A DNA stretch of 64,000 bases, taken from the NCBI GenBank assembly GCA_013297865.1, contig JAAFIP010000007.1:1-64000 (forward strand), given 5' to 3'. A program made the translations under genes and the position numbers. A model generated the notes under the pieces. That model was not told the DNA's origin. It searched no databases and worked only from the letters and a program-made list of their open reading frames with translations. Origin of the DNA: Polaromonas sp. GTDB taxonomy: Bacteria; Pseudomonadota; Gammaproteobacteria; Burkholderiales; Burkholderiaceae_C. Positions 5,585-30,457 of this stretch are shown here, one piece after another. Positions within the stretch are counted from its first letter, which is position 1; the number at the start of each line of letters is the position of its first letter.

Positions 5585-6487
5585 ATGACCAATGCTTGGA
5601 TACAAAGACTGCTGACACTGGGTGTGCCTCTGCTTTGGTGGATCGGTGCGTACCAACTGTGGCCCTCCCACCGGCTGGGCGCAGCGCTGTGTTTGCTGGC
5701 CCCCGTGCTGATCGCCCCGCTACTTGAGGCGGTGCAGTTCATTCTGCTATGGATCATCAATAGGCATGATCCCAGCCCACGGGCCAGTGTGGCCGCGCAT
5801 GTGCGTGCCTGGTGGGGAGAGCTGCGCACGACCGTCAAGGTTTTTAACTGGTGGCAGCCTTTTCGCACCCATACTGTGCCTGATCATCTGGCGCCTGCAC
5901 CTGGCCAGCGTGGTGTCGTGCTGGTTCATGGATTTTTCTGCAACCGCGCCTTCTGGATCCACTGGATGCGGCGTTTGCGGCAGGACGGGCGGGTATTTGT
6001 GGCGGTGAATCTGGAGCCTGCGTTCGGGTCGATTGATGCATACGTTCAGACGATCAATAGCGCGGTGCACAAGGTCTACCAAGCCACGGGCCTACCGCCT
6101 GTGCTGGTCGGGCACAGTATGGGGGGCCTGGCGATTCGGGCATGGTTGCAGGCTATGCATGCGGCCAGACCCGGCGAAACCGTTGCCCACCGCGTGATCA
6201 CGCTGGGTACCCCACACCATGGTACCTGGCTGGGACGCCTGTCCCACGCTGAGAACGGGCGGCAAATGCGTTTGCACAGTACCTGGATAAACTCGCTGGA
6301 GAAGGCGGAAACAAGCCACAAAGCTATAGAATTTGTCTGCTTTTACTCAGATTGCGACAATATTGTCTTTCCAGTCTCATCGGGCAGGCGCGAAGGCGCG
6401 GACAATCGCTTGGTACACGCGTGCGGTCATATCGACCTGGCCCACGATGCGCAGGTCATGCAAGCATGTTGGGCATTGATGAAATAA
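5585..6487 (+). CDS. Alpha/beta hydrolase, lipase-like, membrane-anchored
   Basis: A 300-residue alpha/beta hydrolase. Two hydrophobic segments fill the first ~55 residues (LLTLGVPLLWWIGAYQLW and LCLLAPVLIAPLLEAVQFI), so it is probably held in the inner membrane. The oxyanion region VLVHGFFCNRAFW is near residue 115, the nucleophile elbow GHSMGG is at about 175-180, and a likely catalytic histidine lies in CGHIDLAH near the C terminus. This layout is typical of triacylglycerol lipase or esterase proteins. It starts 18 bases after the GMC gene and may share its transcript. Substrate unknown. Confidence 0.88.
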   Translation: MTNAWIQRLLTLGVPLLWWIGAYQLWPSHRLGAALCLLAPVLIAPLLEAVQFILLWIINRHDPSPRASVAAHVRAWWGELRTTVKVFNWWQPFRTHTVPDHLAPAPGQRGVVLVHGFFCNRAFWIHWMRRLRQDGRVFVAVNLEPAFGSIDAYVQTINSAVHKVYQATGLPPVLVGHSMGGLAIRAWLQAMHAARPGETVAHRVITLGTPHHGTWLGRLSHAENGRQMRLHSTWINSLEKAETSHKAIEFVCFYSDCDNIVFPVSSGRREGADNRLVHACGHIDLAHDAQVMQACWALMK

Positions 6488-6537: not shown

Positions 6538-7650
6538 ATGCCATTGATAGTAGTAATGGATGATGATGCTGGCACACGCATGCTGGTCAGTCAGGTGCTC
6601 CGCAAGGAAGGCTATGACGTGATGGCTGCCGAAGACGGCGCCAAAGGTCTGGCACTGATCCAGGAATTCAAGCCGGATCTGGTGGTCAGCGATGTGCAGA
6701 TGCCGGAGATGGACGGATTTGAGGTGCTCGACCGTGTGCGCAACGCCTCGGATTTGGCCACCATACCAGTGATTTTGCTGACCTCCCTGCAAGACCGCAC
6801 GCATATGCGCCAGGGCATGACCACGGGTGCAGACGACTACTTGACCAAACCTTTCGCACCGCAGGAGCTGCGCGAAGCCGTCAGTGCCCAGCTCAACAAG
6901 ATCGTGCGCGCTGAAGCCATGCGCTCGCAGATGGTGGACACTGCAGTCACCCATGCGCTGGAAGAGCAGCGCCACAAAATCAGCAAGCTGTACGAGACAC
7001 GCATGGCCAAATCGCTCAGCGAGCAATGGCCCGACAGTGGCTACGTCCACGAAAATGAAAAATTCGCCAGTGCGACAGTGCTGTTTGCAGACATGCGCGA
7101 CTATGGGCAGTGGGCGCAGCGTCTGTCCAGCACCGAGCTCAGCGACGTGGTGCAGCAGTTTTATGGCAATGTAGGCGACACAGTCCACCTGTTTGGCGCA
7201 CACTACATGCAATTTGTGGGTGATGGCATGCTGTGTGTGTTTGTCGATGCTGGCGATACCCATTCTGTCAACCACGGACTGCGCGCAGTACGCGCCGCAG
7301 TGGGACTGACCGATGCCACGCGCCGCATCGACAGCTATGTGAAGCAGCATTTTGGTGACCGCAATCTGCCACCTTTCACACTGAGCATTGCCTTGCACAG
7401 TGGCCCCATTGCATTTGCCAAGCTCGATGGCCTGTTTGGCAGCAGCGGCAACACCACCCCGGTGGGCGATACGGTGACTGTGGCCTTGAAATTGTTTGCC
7501 GGACAGCCTGCATTGAACTGGATGATTGGTGCCAGCGTGCAGACCGCGCGTTTGGTGACTGGTGCTGTCAAGATCGGTGCACGCTCCTTGGTTAATGTGC
7601 CAAGTCGATCCCCTGCTTTGGATGCGGTAGAAATTCTGGGTCTGCAGTAA
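6538..7650 (+). CDS. Response regulator with class III cyclase-homology domain
   Basis: This 370-residue protein has an N-terminal receiver domain (acidic pocket MDDD, phospho-acceptor Asp52 in SDVQMPEMDG, Thr in LLTS, Lys104 in TKPF), then a helical linker and a cyclase-homology domain from about residue 178. The metal-binding aspartates survive (FADMRDY and VGDGMLCVF), but the usual adenine-selecting lysine is replaced by Gln (MQFVGDG), and the GDTVN...R catalytic pair reads GDTVTVALK, with Thr and Lys. Cyclase activity is therefore doubtful. Its stop overlaps the start of the hybrid kinase (TAATG), so the two are probably partners. A paralogue lies at 19142-20260. Confidence 0.9.
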   Translation: MPLIVVMDDDAGTRMLVSQVLRKEGYDVMAAEDGAKGLALIQEFKPDLVVSDVQMPEMDGFEVLDRVRNASDLATIPVILLTSLQDRTHMRQGMTTGADDYLTKPFAPQELREAVSAQLNKIVRAEAMRSQMVDTAVTHALEEQRHKISKLYETRMAKSLSEQWPDSGYVHENEKFASATVLFADMRDYGQWAQRLSSTELSDVVQQFYGNVGDTVHLFGAHYMQFVGDGMLCVFVDAGDTHSVNHGLRAVRAAVGLTDATRRIDSYVKQHFGDRNLPPFTLSIALHSGPIAFAKLDGLFGSSGNTTPVGDTVTVALKLFAGQPALNWMIGASVQTARLVTGAVKIGARSLVNVPSRSPALDAVEILGLQ

Positions 7651-26667: not shown

Positions 26668-27297
26668 TCAGGCGCGGCCGCCCTGGGCCAGAATAATCTT
26701 CACACCGTCCACCGTTTGGTAGTGCCAGTCATATTCCATGTAGCGCGCTGTCTCTTGTGCCTGCGCCAGGCCATGGTGCTTGGCCACGGTGTACAGGGAT
26801 GCATCAATGCCCATGCCAATGCCAGCGGAAGTCACAATCTTGCCGTTGTCCACCACGCGGGCGTTGCGGTGTACTGTGCACGCAGGCTCATCAGATGCCA
26901 GCTCGTCCAACGCCCCTTGGTGGGAGGTGGCCTGCAGTCCCTTGAGCAAACCTGCCTTGGCCAGCAGCAAAGCACCTGAACAAACGGACACCACGCTTTG
27001 TGCGGCGGCCACACGTTGCTGCACAAAGCGGATCATCGATGGGCTGTGCTTTTCCCGCCGTGTGCCAAAACCACCGGGGATCACCAACACATGCGCATCG
27101 GGCATGGTGTCAAAGGTGTAATCGCAGTTGATGCTCATGTTGTTACGCGCCATCACTGGCTTGCTATGCTGCGCCACGGTAAAGACATCATACAAACGCT
27201 TGTTTTCGCGCCCACCGCTCACGCCAAACACCTCGAATGGCCCTGCAAAGTCCAGCACCTCTACATTGTCAAACATTAAAACAGCGACATTCATCAT
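26668..27297 (-). CDS. DJ-1/PfpI family protein (GATase1-like)
   Basis: A 209-residue protein of the DJ-1/PfpI superfamily, resembling the isonitrile-hydratase/ThiJ branch. The nucleophile cysteine lies in VVSVCSGALLLAKAGLL, with the acid in the N-terminal LDFAGPFEVFG and IPGGFGTRRE. Members include deglycases, isonitrile hydratases and regulators without activity. The start at 27297 has AAGGAG 8 bases upstream, and it overlaps the stop of the deformylase/PLP fusion (ATGA), so the two are translated together. Confidence 0.9.
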   Translation of the reverse strand: MMNVAVLMFDNVEVLDFAGPFEVFGVSGGRENKRLYDVFTVAQHSKPVMARNNMSINCDYTFDTMPDAHVLVIPGGFGTRREKHSPSMIRFVQQRVAAAQSVVSVCSGALLLAKAGLLKGLQATSHQGALDELASDEPACTVHRNARVVDNGKIVTSAGIGMGIDASLYTVAKHHGLAQAQETARYMEYDWHYQTVDGVKIILAQGGRA

Positions 27298-28775
27298 GTC
27301 AGATACTCCTTGATTTGGGATTCGGTGATATTGCTGCCGCACAGCACGGTGGCTACTTTTTGGTTCGCAAACAACCCCAGGTGCGCCACGATAGCGGCCA
27401 CACCTACAGCGCCTGCAGGCTCCAGCAGCAGGCCTGCATGTTGGTAAACCAGGCGCATGGCTTGGATGATGTGTGCGTCAGTGATCAGCAGCACATCGTC
27501 CACCAAGCCCTGCATATCGCTTACCGCTTCGGGGATGGGCACGCGCACGGCGATGCCATCTGCAATGGTGTCTGCTGTGTCGGGGGTGATGAGGGTTTGG
27601 CTGCGCCAGGATCTTTCCATCGCATCTGCGCCCGCAGCACTGACGCCCAGCACACGCGTGGCGGGTGATGCCGCCTTAATCCAGCGCGCCATGCCGTTGA
27701 GCATGGCGCCATTGCCTAGCGGGATGGCGATGCTGTCAAACGCATCACCTCGCGACAGCAGCTCCATGGCCAAGGTGCCGTGACCTTCGCTGATTTCAGC
27801 ATCCAAGCCGTCTTCCACCATCTGGCCGTCAATGCTCTTGGCATACGCCTTGGCAGCATCTTTGGCCGCATCAAAATCACGGCCTTCCTGCCGCACCTCT
27901 GCGCCCAAGGCTTTCATGCGGGCGACTTTCAGTGGATTGGCGTTAACAGCCGCGTAAATGACGATGGGCAAGCCAAACGATCGGCAGGCATAGGCCATGG
28001 CCTGGCCCCAGTTGCCCGCACTGGCGCACACGATGGCGCGCTTGTCGCCACGCCGCTGCATCTCGCTGACAAAGAAACTGGCCCCACGCCCTTTGAAGCT
28101 GCGAATCGGGTTGGTAAAGTCCAGCTTGATGGTGAGCTGGCAACCCAAAGCTTCGCTCAGCGGTTCGCAGTTGTACTGCGGTGAGTTCAAAAATTCTGGT
28201 GGAATGACGTTCGCGCAATACGCAATGTGCGCCAACGACAGCCGATGCGAAGGACGTGCAGCACCGACCAGCGCAGCATGTTCGCTGATGGGTCTTATGC
28301 TGTCAATTCCATGCGCGCGCTCTGTCATCAACATACCGTCCAAGTGATCTATTTCATGCTGTACCAGCTCTGCCAAGTCGGCAGATAAGTTTTTCCAGTG
28401 CCGTGCGCGTCCTTGCTCGTCTTGGTATTGCAGGCTGATGCTGGCATGGCGCTGCACACGCACGACGCAGTCTGGCACGCTCAGGCAATCGTCCCACACG
28501 TCTTGCATTGCTTCGCTGCGCCACGTGATTTTCGGATTGATGAGTGCAAAAGGCGTAGCGCCCAAGTTCATCACAATCACACGTTTGATGATGCCTACTT
28601 GCGGCGCCGCCATTGCACGGCCAAAGCCCTTGCGTGCGCGAAAGTCCGCCAGCGTGGCGTGCATTTGCGTTAGCTGAGTTTGCATATCTGCATCTGGAAA
28701 CGTTACAGGATGGCATGCTGTGCGCAAGGCGGCGTGGCCTTTTTCCAAGATGGTGAGAGGTTTGATCAATGGCAT
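27294..28775 (-). CDS. Fusion: peptide deformylase-like domain + PLP-dependent threonine-dehydratase-like domain
   Basis: A 493-residue two-domain protein. Residues 1-170 are a peptide deformylase domain: FGRAMAAPQVG (51-61), DDCLSVP with the metal ligand Cys97 where EGCLS is usual, and QHEIDHLDG with His140, Glu141 and His144. Residues 185-493 are a fold-type II PLP enzyme: Lys228 in NPIRSFKGRGAS, the asparagine loop SAGNWGQAMAYA, the phosphate loop PLGNGAM and a C-terminal CGSN. All key residues of both halves are kept, so both could be active. I infer an action on an N-formyl amino acid or peptide followed by beta-elimination/deamination. The frame is continuous through the join. It overlaps the DJ-1-like gene and is divergent from an Lrp regulator. 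Confidence 0.9.
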   Translation of the reverse strand: MPLIKPLTILEKGHAALRTACHPVTFPDADMQTQLTQMHATLADFRARKGFGRAMAAPQVGIIKRVIVMNLGATPFALINPKITWRSEAMQDVWDDCLSVPDCVVRVQRHASISLQYQDEQGRARHWKNLSADLAELVQHEIDHLDGMLMTERAHGIDSIRPISEHAALVGAARPSHRLSLAHIAYCANVIPPEFLNSPQYNCEPLSEALGCQLTIKLDFTNPIRSFKGRGASFFVSEMQRRGDKRAIVCASAGNWGQAMAYACRSFGLPIVIYAAVNANPLKVARMKALGAEVRQEGRDFDAAKDAAKAYAKSIDGQMVEDGLDAEISEGHGTLAMELLSRGDAFDSIAIPLGNGAMLNGMARWIKAASPATRVLGVSAAGADAMERSWRSQTLITPDTADTIADGIAVRVPIPEAVSDMQGLVDDVLLITDAHIIQAMRLVYQHAGLLLEPAGAVGVAAIVAHLGLFANQKVATVLCGSNITESQIKEYLT

Positions 28776-28814
28776 ATGGATGGTAGTTTGCCTTTTGAAG
28801 GCGATGTTTTAGAT

Positions 28815-28848
28815 CAATTTGAGCTCTCAAATTGCGGTTTAGCCGCAA
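28815..28848. promoter_or_regulatory. Candidate operator of the Lrp-type regulator
   Basis: CAATTTGAG and CTCAAATTG form a perfect 9-bp inverted repeat around CT (28815-28834). It is followed by TTGCGG-TTTAG-CCGCAA (28832-28848). Both lie in the 105-base region between the divergent fusion gene and the Lrp gene, where such a regulator would bind. Confidence 0.6.
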
Positions 28849-28880
28849 AATACAGTCATGAAAAACTTCTACCATAGCCC

Positions 28881-29339
28881 ATGCTCTTAGACGACCTTGA
28901 TCGCGCCATCCTCGCCCGCTACCAGCACGACACACGCCTGCCTGCCCAAGCCATTGGTGACGACATTGGCTTGTCAGCTGCCGCCGTGCAGCGCCGCATC
29001 AAGCGCATGCGCGAGACGGGTGTAATTGCCGCTGAGATAGCGCAGATCAAGCCTGAGGCCGTGGGCCTGCCTGTGACCGTGGTGGTGCATGTAGACATTG
29101 AGCGCGAGACCTTGCACTACATCGATGCTTTCAAAGCCGCCATGCGCGCACGGCCCGAGGTGCAGCAGTGCTGGTACACGACGGGTCTGACAGACTTTAT
29201 CCTGGTCGTGCGCGTGGCCAGCATGGCGGCGTATGAGCAGTTCACCCGCGAGGCGCTGGTCAGCCATGACAACGTGGCCAAATTCACCAGCTATGTAGCA
29301 CTGGGCGAGGTGAAAAGCGGTTTGGCCCTGAACATCTAA
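28881..29339 (+). CDS. Lrp/AsnC family transcriptional regulator
   Basis: A 152-residue regulator with an N-terminal helix-turn-helix (DDIGLSAAAVQRRIKRMRETG, about 30-50) and a RAM domain (VVVHVDIERETL to about 140). It is divergent from the deformylase/PLP fusion and DJ-1-like pair, so it is probably their regulator; the inverted repeats at 28815-28848 are candidate sites. The likely effector is an amino acid or a product of the fusion enzyme. Confidence 0.92.
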   Translation: MLLDDLDRAILARYQHDTRLPAQAIGDDIGLSAAAVQRRIKRMRETGVIAAEIAQIKPEAVGLPVTVVVHVDIERETLHYIDAFKAAMRARPEVQQCWYTTGLTDFILVVRVASMAAYEQFTREALVSHDNVAKFTSYVALGEVKSGLALNI

Positions 29340-29401: not shown

Positions 29402-30457
29402 TCATTGGGTGCTGAATCGGTAGATGCCTTCGGTATCTGCCGCACGTCTCAGCTTGCCTTCATACCACAGCATATGCAAATGCGCCACCGCCTCGCCAAT
29501 GGCGAAAGTCATCTGGTGCAGATCGAGCTCGCGCTTGAACATGATGGGCACGATGTCGGCGCCGCTGGCGGGTTGTTCGCGGCAGGCTTGCATGACTTCA
29601 GCCAAGCGGTCGGTGTGGTGGTTTTGCAACTGGGCGATGCGTTGGTGCATGCCGGTAAAAGGTTTGCCGTGGGACGGCAGCACCAAGGTGTCGGCGGGCA
29701 GGGCCAGGTATTTAGTGATGGAGTGGAGAAACAGGCGCAAAGGGTCGCCTTCGGGTTCCAGGTCAAACACACTGACGTTCGTGCTGATGCGCGGCAGCAC
29801 CATGTCGCCACTGATCAGCGTTTTCAAGCCATCGCAATACAAGGCAATATGCTCAGGCGCATGGCCATAGCCGCTGATGCAGCGCCAGTCGCGGCTACCG
29901 ATGCGGATTACATCGCCTTCCATCATGCGGCGGTAGCTGTTGGGCACGTTGGGCACGAGGCTGGGGTAGTAGCCGGTGCGGGCTTTGATTTTGGCGACCG
30001 ATGCAGGGTCTACCAAGCCGTGGGATGCGTAAAAGTCTGCCGCCGCCTGACCACCAAAGTTGCTGTGGCTGCTGGACGCATTGCGCGCGGCGTTGTAGTC
30101 GGTGCTGCTGATCCACAGGGGCACCTTCCAGGTGTCGCACAGCCAGTGCGCCAGGCCGATATGGTCGGGATGCATATGTGTGCAGACTACGCGCAGAATG
30201 GGCAGGCCCTGCAGCTGGGTGTCAAAAATCTGCTGCCACTGCGCGCGGCTCTCAGCTTGGTCAATGCAGCAGTCCACCACAGTCCAGCCGTCCTTGCCGT
30301 CCATCTGGTCGCGCAGCAGCCACAGGTTGATATGGTTGAGCGCAAAAGGCAGGCCCATGCGAATCCAGTAGACACCCGGCGCTACCTCCATGGTGTGGCC
30401 TGCGGCAGGCATGGCGTCGCCCAGCGGGTAGTGCAGTTCGTGTTCAAGCGAGTTCAT
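29402..30457 (-). CDS. MBL-fold metallo-hydrolase
   Basis: A 351-residue metallo-beta-lactamase-fold hydrolase. The metal motif THMHPDHIGLAHW is near residue 95, with later ligands in SGYGHAPEHIALYCDG and PSHGKPF. The C-terminal ~70 residues carry a winged-helix-like segment, as in LACTB2-type proteins. It starts 45 bases from the LiuR-type palindrome and is divergent from the MerR regulator, so it may belong to the leucine/isovalerate regulon, perhaps as a thioester or lactone hydrolase. Substrate unknown. Confidence 0.9.
   Translation of the reverse strand: MNSLEHELHYPLGDAMPAAGHTMEVAPGVYWIRMGLPFALNHINLWLLRDQMDGKDGWTVVDCCIDQAESRAQWQQIFDTQLQGLPILRVVCTHMHPDHIGLAHWLCDTWKVPLWISSTDYNAARNASSSHSNFGGQAAADFYASHGLVDPASVAKIKARTGYYPSLVPNVPNSYRRMMEGDVIRIGSRDWRCISGYGHAPEHIALYCDGLKTLISGDMVLPRISTNVSVFDLEPEGDPLRLFLHSITKYLALPADTLVLPSHGKPFTGMHQRIAQLQNHHTDRLAEVMQACREQPASGADIVPIMFKRELDLHQMTFAIGEAVAHLHMLWYEGKLRRAADTEGIYRFSTQ

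Follow-up and report, generated by a model that had tools for sequence, protein, structure and literature searches.

A peptide deformylase-like domain fused to a PLP-dependent ammonia-lyase-like domain in Polaromonas sp., a possible two-step enzyme of amino acid catabolism

Description

The window analyzed here is a 64,000-nucleotide stretch of Polaromonas sp. DNA (GenBank assembly GCA_013297865.1, contig JAAFIP010000007.1, positions 1 to 64,000) that encodes, in a single frame of 493 amino acids, a peptide deformylase-like domain followed by a fold-type II pyridoxal 5'-phosphate (PLP)-dependent domain resembling ammonia-lyases (Table 1). With a probability of roughly 55%, we propose that the protein is a two-step catabolic enzyme that would remove a small N-acyl group from a free amino acid and then deaminate it. 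The N-terminal half would belong to a clade of peptide deformylases recruited away from translation, whose metal site of one Cys and two His, together with a Glu, would cleave the formyl group, or an acyl group of similarly small size, from the nitrogen of a free amino acid or amino acid-like compound, giving formate. The freed amino acid would pass to the C-terminal PLP half, which would eliminate its beta substituent to give ammonia and a 2-oxo acid, and expression probably responds to an amino acid through a divergent Lrp-type regulator. Solved relatives of the lyase half carry out alpha,beta-elimination on amino acids bearing a beta leaving group. That the amino acid is Ser- or Thr-like is a guess, made because of the lyase family and the glycine C-acetyltransferase (KBL) and threonine 3-dehydrogenase (TDH) partners of relatives.

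Table 1. The fused gene, its domains and its immediate neighbours in window coordinates.
Feature	Positions	Strand	Basis
DJ-1/PfpI family gene	26668-27297	minus	Pfam; isonitrile hydratases closest among solved structures
Fused gene, 493 aa, deformylase-like then fold-type II PLP domain	27294-28775 (including stop)	minus	Open reading frame list, Pfam, alignment
PLP fold-type II ammonia-lyase-like domain, residues 197-480	27336-28187	minus	Pfam, fold search, alignment
Linker, residues 156-196	28188-28310	minus	Alignment
Deformylase-like domain, residues 7-155, DDC clade	28311-28757	minus	Pfam, alignment, motif counts, tree
Intergenic region, 105 bases, presumed promoter/operator	28776-28880		Inferred from gene layout
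Lrp/AsnC-family regulator	28881-29339	plus, divergent from the fused gene	PF13404 + PF01037 (AsnC helix-turn-helix, ligand-binding)

Results

The fused frame begins with ATG and has no internal stop; the plus strand of the same interval holds several. A reading of this DNA made from the sequence alone (the sequence-only reading) had claimed one continuous frame for both domains without naming a strand, and the claim holds on the minus strand. Its numbering of Cys97, His140, Glu141, His144 and Lys228 is likewise borne out, all five being invariant in an alignment of seven fusions (the window's and six others; L110, detected later, is outside this alignment). We take Cys97, His140 and His144 to be the metal ligands and Glu141 to be catalytic. 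PF01327 matches residues 7-155 (E=4.9e-35; 120.9 bits vs a Pfam cut-off of 22.8) and PF00291 matches residues 197-480 (E=4.4e-69; 233.5 bits vs 35), and from about residue 175 onward the intervening linker aligns with the N-terminus of stand-alone lyases. The whole protein gave an AlphaFold2 model of fair to good quality (predicted local distance difference test, pLDDT, 85.6; predicted template modelling score, pTM, 0.74). Compared with the fusion L039, the deformylase half has a nonsynonymous divergence (dN) of 0.22 and a synonymous divergence (dS) of 2.06, and the lyase half a dN of 0.14. The domain fusion is confirmed as real, neither chance nor assembly error.

A genome search for the domain pair, as the sequence-only reading had suggested, found seven further full-length fusions (L039, L040, L041, L042, L043, L047 and L110) and one locus (L046) where the halves are separate neighbouring genes in the opposite order, lyase first. 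Six of these fusions and the split pair came from a genome_contigs scan with a single protein, which returned 17 loci, the other 10 holding the lyase only (whole or a piece); such a scan detects close relatives only, so the fusion count is a lower bound. The remaining fusion (genome G1391, locus L110) appeared when 170 genomes from the window's order were searched with the deformylase-clade profile. In the family, seven of 399 genomes had a match at E<=1e-60, namely the window's fusion and six lyase parts alone; among 369 of the class, the window's own was the sole match at 1e-90; and 398 of the phylum yielded the window's fusion and three lyase-only genes. Plasmid records matched in 1071 cases, none with one place covering 80% of the query. 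The fusion is rare, all searches together having sampled fewer than 2000 genomes.

An assembly or annotation artefact is rejected, since the fusion is also present in the one-contig genome G1391 and in three records whose titles do not call them metagenome-assembled genomes (Luteimonas saliphila, Dyella mobilis and Burkholderiaceae bacterium 16). Confinement to the window's genus is rejected by the fusions found elsewhere; no genome of the same genus was among the listed relatives. In the L. saliphila fusion (L041) the middle of the deformylase half (about 6240-6480) is out of frame with the two ends, a pattern that a pair of frame changes cancelling each other would give and that could be either sequencing error or real decay. 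For this reason L041 was excluded from the deformylase-half alignments, motif counts, structure alignment and deformylase tree, and kept in the fusion alignment and lyase tree.

The deformylase half falls in a clade of 18 members, here called the DDC clade, that stands apart from 30 ordinary deformylases with support of 100/100, the placement of the long branch L002 being unsure. The ordinary set is not a random draw (E. coli Def, two others of the window's own genome, and the 27 next-best loci), the near-copies L064/L065, L095/L096 and L100/L101 are counted separately in the clade, and the L116 deformylase, found after the motif count, is not included. Gln50, the metal ligands and the catalytic Glu are retained in all 48 proteins, the ligands (Cys/His/His) and Glu thus in 18/18 clade members. 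The two groups differ, with few exceptions, at E. coli positions 44, 45, 88, 89, 125, 128 and 129. Position 44 is R in 17 of the 18 clade members and I, V or A in all 30 ordinary ones, position 45 is A in 16 and G in two of the clade, and positions 88 and 89 are both D throughout the clade vs E and G, respectively, throughout the ordinary set. Position 129 is L in 18/18 vs C, V or A in 30/30, and position 125 is large and hydrophobic in none of the clade and hydrophobic in 29 of the 30. In signature motif 1 (GxGxAAxQ) the clade has GRA or GRG for GxG (window, GRAMAAPQ), and in motif 2 (EGCxS) it has DDC in 18/18 (window, DDCLS) where the ordinary deformylases have EGC in 30/30; motif 3 of the window (HEIDH) keeps HExxH.

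The S1' pocket residues of the S. agalactiae deformylase, as given in PMC5071857, map to E. coli positions 44, 88, 125, 129 and 132 in our own sequence alignment, made without a complex; the paper itself equates position 125 only, and one S1' residue in its list is left unmapped. In that enzyme the substrate peptide is also held by the backbone at residues that map to 44 and 89. Because the pocket residues have changed, we infer that the clade no longer grips the methionine side chain of a peptide, and its pocket may instead take a small polar or charged molecule. With the S1' pocket and two of the three signature motifs altered, formyl-Met and formyl peptides are poor guesses for the substrate.

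The window protein scores 97.0 bits against TIGR00079, below the cut-off of 103.95. All 12 clade members tested miss the TIGR00079 and NF001159 cut-offs, and both controls pass (TIGR00079: E. coli Def, 220.7; L001 of the window's own genome, 180.0). The genome carries two deformylases besides the fusion. The closest solved relatives of the half are nonetheless peptide deformylases. A poor model of the isolated half (pLDDT 62.6) matched deformylases best (3uwa, Z 9.5, root-mean-square deviation, rmsd, 2.0, 79 aligned); the whole-protein fold search was silent on it because the lyase half filled the match list. The clade is rare, since few members were found per genome set: 3/199 genomes of one order (one already known), 3/87 of one family (two already known) and 3/56 of one genus (two already known). 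A search of 200 genomes of the phylum with the fused deformylases gave, besides the window's own, two stand-alone proteins at 171 and 161 bits, the next best scoring 105.

The lyase half belongs to the PALP family by its PF00291 score and the catalytic Lys in SFK, and its whole-protein model matched the catabolic threonine/serine ammonia-lyase TdcB (2gn0; Z 42.8, rmsd 2.0, 317 aligned, 24% identity). Lys228 lies in RSFKGRGA and the loops read SAGNWG, PLGNGAM and CGSN; across the subfamily the features are mostly NPIRSFKGRG, AGNWG, GNGA and CG[SG]N. Fold, Lys and SAGN loop are shared with TdcB, and the C-terminal CGxN corresponds to TdcB SGGN, whereas NPIRSFKGRG, AGNWG and GNGA stand against RTGSFKIRG, AGNHA and GGGG, and TdcB has no counterpart of the N-terminal deformylase. 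The GGGGL loop of TdcB is GNGAM in the window, with GNGA in 11 of the 12 rows aligned beside TdcB and GGGA in L047. The half falls under the curated cut-off of all 25 NCBIfam families listed (25 of the 45 matched), so it should not be named a threonine dehydratase and a Ser/Thr substrate stays a guess.

Gene company of the clade

Unfused members of the clade mostly have neighbours whose shared theme is N-acyl or amino acid metabolism, not translation. An Ancylobacter plasmid (L097) carries Lrp, the deformylase and an ArgE-type M20 deacylase, with a class IV aminotransferase and KBL (572 bits vs a cut-off of 460) divergent. In Paraburkholderia (L099) the deformylase occurs together with a branched-chain substrate-binding protein, a class IV aminotransferase, transporter genes, ArgE and a KBL-like protein that narrowly misses the same cut-off (453 bits), with Lrp divergent. 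L111 (4713-8712) has a class IV aminotransferase, the deformylase, KBL (628 bits) and TDH (541 bits vs 380; by a second model, 443 vs 458) in a row and a divergent Lrp. To our knowledge, the established TDH-KBL route of threonine degradation works without a deformylase; the window's fusion has a lyase in place of these two enzymes. In three loci of one genus (L093, L094 and L116) the deformylase adjoins, and is divergent from, a class IV aminotransferase; Lrp lies no more than about 4 kb off, and an amino acid permease further out. In an unannotated Shinella record (L098) ABC transporter genes resembling amino acid transporters (27-34% identity) and a DAO-family oxidoreductase lie upstream, and Lrp was not found at the locus.

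In Burkholderia (L100 and L101, 6989-8479) the deformylase and a class IV aminotransferase share one 496-residue frame with its ATG at 6989. This appears to be a second joining of a clade deformylase to a PLP enzyme, here of an unrelated fold, although the aminotransferase may have an internal start of its own. Deformylation followed by deamination, the outline drawn by the sequence-only reading, is favoured because the clade recurs beside amino acid enzymes and shares a frame with this second, unrelated PLP enzyme; the formyl-Met and formyl peptide substrates it listed are weaker parts of it, as are the Ser/Thr substrate and the DJ-1 partnership.

The seven fused deformylases form one clade within the DDC clade (support 95/85), which fits a single fusion event followed by spread. 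Records with the fusion are labelled Burkholderiaceae, Sphaerotilaceae, Rhodanobacteraceae, Lysobacteraceae, Granulosicoccaceae, one Alphaproteobacteria and one genome of the window's order. The Alphaproteobacteria record, a metagenome-assembled genome (L039), has a lyase half sister to the window's, which suggests gene transfer or mis-binning.

Neighbouring genes

The divergent Lrp gene and the coupled DJ-1/PfpI gene had both been pointed out in the sequence-only reading. The Lrp gene is there, with both of its Pfam domains, and Lrp genes 81-85% identical are likewise divergent from stand-alone lyases in L044 and L045. The Lrp link is not universal. Lrp is adjacent in two of the eight fusions (the window and L110), lies 5.4 kb away in L043 and was not found in the examined flanks of L039, L040, L041, L042 and L047. 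It adjoins the split pair L046 and is present at 13 of 16 stand-alone lyase loci (L005, L034-L038, L044, L045, L048-L051 and L055; L005 and L045 are one gene); it was not found at the other three, L052, L053 and L054, which are short contigs.

L005/L045 retains the window's DJ-1, divergent Lrp, MBL hydrolase and MerR neighbours, plus an M20 hydrolase. This M20 amidohydrolase (L045, 7640-8869), a possible N-deacylase, adjoins DJ-1 in a relative that has no deformylase. The MBL-fold hydrolase gene of the window (29402-30457) is next to Lrp in L005/L045 too and may be a member of the neighbourhood.

The coupling of DJ-1 holds for the window, where its start overlaps the stop of the fused gene as ATGA, and does not hold as a general partnership: no DJ-1 homologue was found in the examined flanks of six of the seven other fusions, L041 having one about 2 kb away, and in L045 DJ-1 follows a lyase at a locus without a deformylase. 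The DJ-1 protein (PF01965, 79.9 bits) has the nucleophilic Cys, SVCSG aligning to SVCTG, and its best solved relatives are isonitrile hydratases (6ni5, E=3.8e-23).

A clear hydratase homologue (E=1.1e-83 to 3non) is found in L103 (6497-7789), where a clade deformylase directly follows it. The arrangement is repeated on the reverse strand in L102, from the same genus; in both loci a dehydrogenase and a TIM-barrel protein continue the row after the hydratase homologue and the deformylase, and Lrp was not found. The divergent regulator at both loci is of a DJ-1 plus AraC type. The row could be an isonitrile degradation operon. The window's DJ-1 protein is 34% identical to the L103 hydratase (E=1e-24), and also 31% (L103, E=2e-15) and 33% (L102, E=5e-21) identical to the DJ-1 domains of the AraC-type regulators; the LD..GP motif and the Cys are common to hydratase and regulator domains, and the window's protein is not clearly a hydratase.

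Discussion

Several results weigh against a two-step catabolic enzyme. The best dehydratase model listed for the lyase half is PRK06110, at 197.1 bits vs a cut-off of 317, and the class IV aminotransferases of the relatives fall below all NCBIfam cut-offs listed. At the fusions L039, L040, L042, L043 and L047 the neighbours that were checked indicate no pathway, the gene clusters were judged by eye with no tally of genes beside ordinary deformylases for comparison, and no result here names a natural source of an N-formyl Ser- or Thr-like amino acid. In the lyase tree, where the fused state requires at least four changes, the deformylase-free L005 groups with the window and L039 (97/94), L044 is placed with support of 91/91, fusions surround both of them, and nine stand-alone lyases form a clade that separates two groups of fusions. 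Such nesting means that the deformylase step is dispensable. Loss of the deformylase part is the simpler reading of this tree, although repeated fusion may have occurred instead.

Dispensability also bears on the idea that the deformylase half is a noncatalytic, ligand-sensing regulatory domain of the lyase, much as biosynthetic threonine deaminases carry ACT-like regulatory domains. The altered pocket and the relatives that have the lyase without it would suit such a role, but no clade member departs from the metal ligands or the catalytic Glu and stand-alone members occur in gene clusters, two of which include an M20 deacylase, and we hold this to be very improbable. Hardly better placed is the idea that the half deformylates nascent proteins, ordinarily or in times of stress, and that the fusion is a neutral accident. 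The retained metal ligands, Glu and HExxH, the pass against the broad Pfam model and the solved relatives speak for it; against it stand a pocket and two motifs altered clade-wide, the two other deformylases of the genome, the curated cut-offs missed by every clade member tested, the recurrent amino acid gene company and the second joining to an unrelated PLP fold. The likeness to peptide deformylase (Def; PF01327, TIGR00079) thus lies in the sequence family, the Cys, two His and Glu of the metal site, Gln50 and HExxH, and the difference in motifs, pocket, scores and in the fusion or clustering with amino acid enzymes.

Two other readings keep the order of two reactions and change the chemistry that feeds the lyase. 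The deformylase half might act on a small amide other than formyl, be it acetyl, carbamoyl or cyclic, as the pocket changes would allow and the M20 deacylase neighbours, which suggest N-acyl substrates generally, would fit; we consider this unlikely, though worth keeping in mind, given that the deformylase metal site is kept and one relative follows a homologue of a formamide-making enzyme. Rather less probable is an isonitrile route, in which DJ-1 would turn an isonitrile amino acid into the N-formyl compound by hydration, the deformylase half would free the amino acid and the lyase half would degrade it, serving to detoxify or to feed on isonitrile natural products. Its attraction is that isocyanide hydratases are DJ-1 proteins producing N-formamides, according to PMC10792529, and that the window has a coupled DJ-1 gene. 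In its favour are also the hydratases as nearest solved relatives of the window's protein, the kept Cys, the overlap of the genes, and the hydratase homologue immediately 5' of the clade deformylase in L103 and L102. That pair, however, was seen in one genus only, hydratase homologues being common elsewhere, and none of the 30 plasmid records listed with a hydratase homologue is among the six with a clade deformylase. The resemblance to regulator DJ-1 domains, the absence of a homologue from the flanks examined at most other fusions, and the lyase-DJ-1 pair that persists without a deformylase in L045 count against it as well.

Papers by Goda and Fukatsu reportedly concern, by their titles, isonitrile hydratase and N-substituted formamide deformylase (NfdA). 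That system resembles the isonitrile route in hydration to a formamide followed by deformylation and, in L102/L103, in a deformylase behind a hydratase homologue; NfdA is an amidohydrolase-superfamily enzyme, not known as a relative of Def, and identity between the window's DJ-1 and the L103 hydratase homologue is no more than about one third.

No description of the fusion or the clade was found in literature titles and the openings of abstracts, a coverage outside which most subscription journals lie. In the proposed two-step enzyme the folds and catalytic sites are familiar ones, and the specificity class and architecture look new. More broadly, we give even odds that the clade left translation as N-formyl amino acid hydrolases in catabolism, was linked to PLP enzymes time and again, including by fusion to two or more unrelated PLP folds, and in some lineages, including the window's, would be the middle step from isonitrile to N-formyl amino acid, amino acid and oxo acid.

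Work on peptide deformylase has dealt with its part in translation and its use as an antibiotic target. Thanks to the fusion, the question can be put to a direct test with one protein and two measurable products, formate and ammonia. If the proposal is true, the deformylase fold would have been reused for small molecules, with its catalytic site kept and its methionine pocket rebuilt, and records naming such proteins 'peptide deformylase', as the annotated plasmid records of L097 and L099 do, would need correction. It would also mean that there is a natural pool of N-formyl (or N-acyl) amino acids that bacteria eat.

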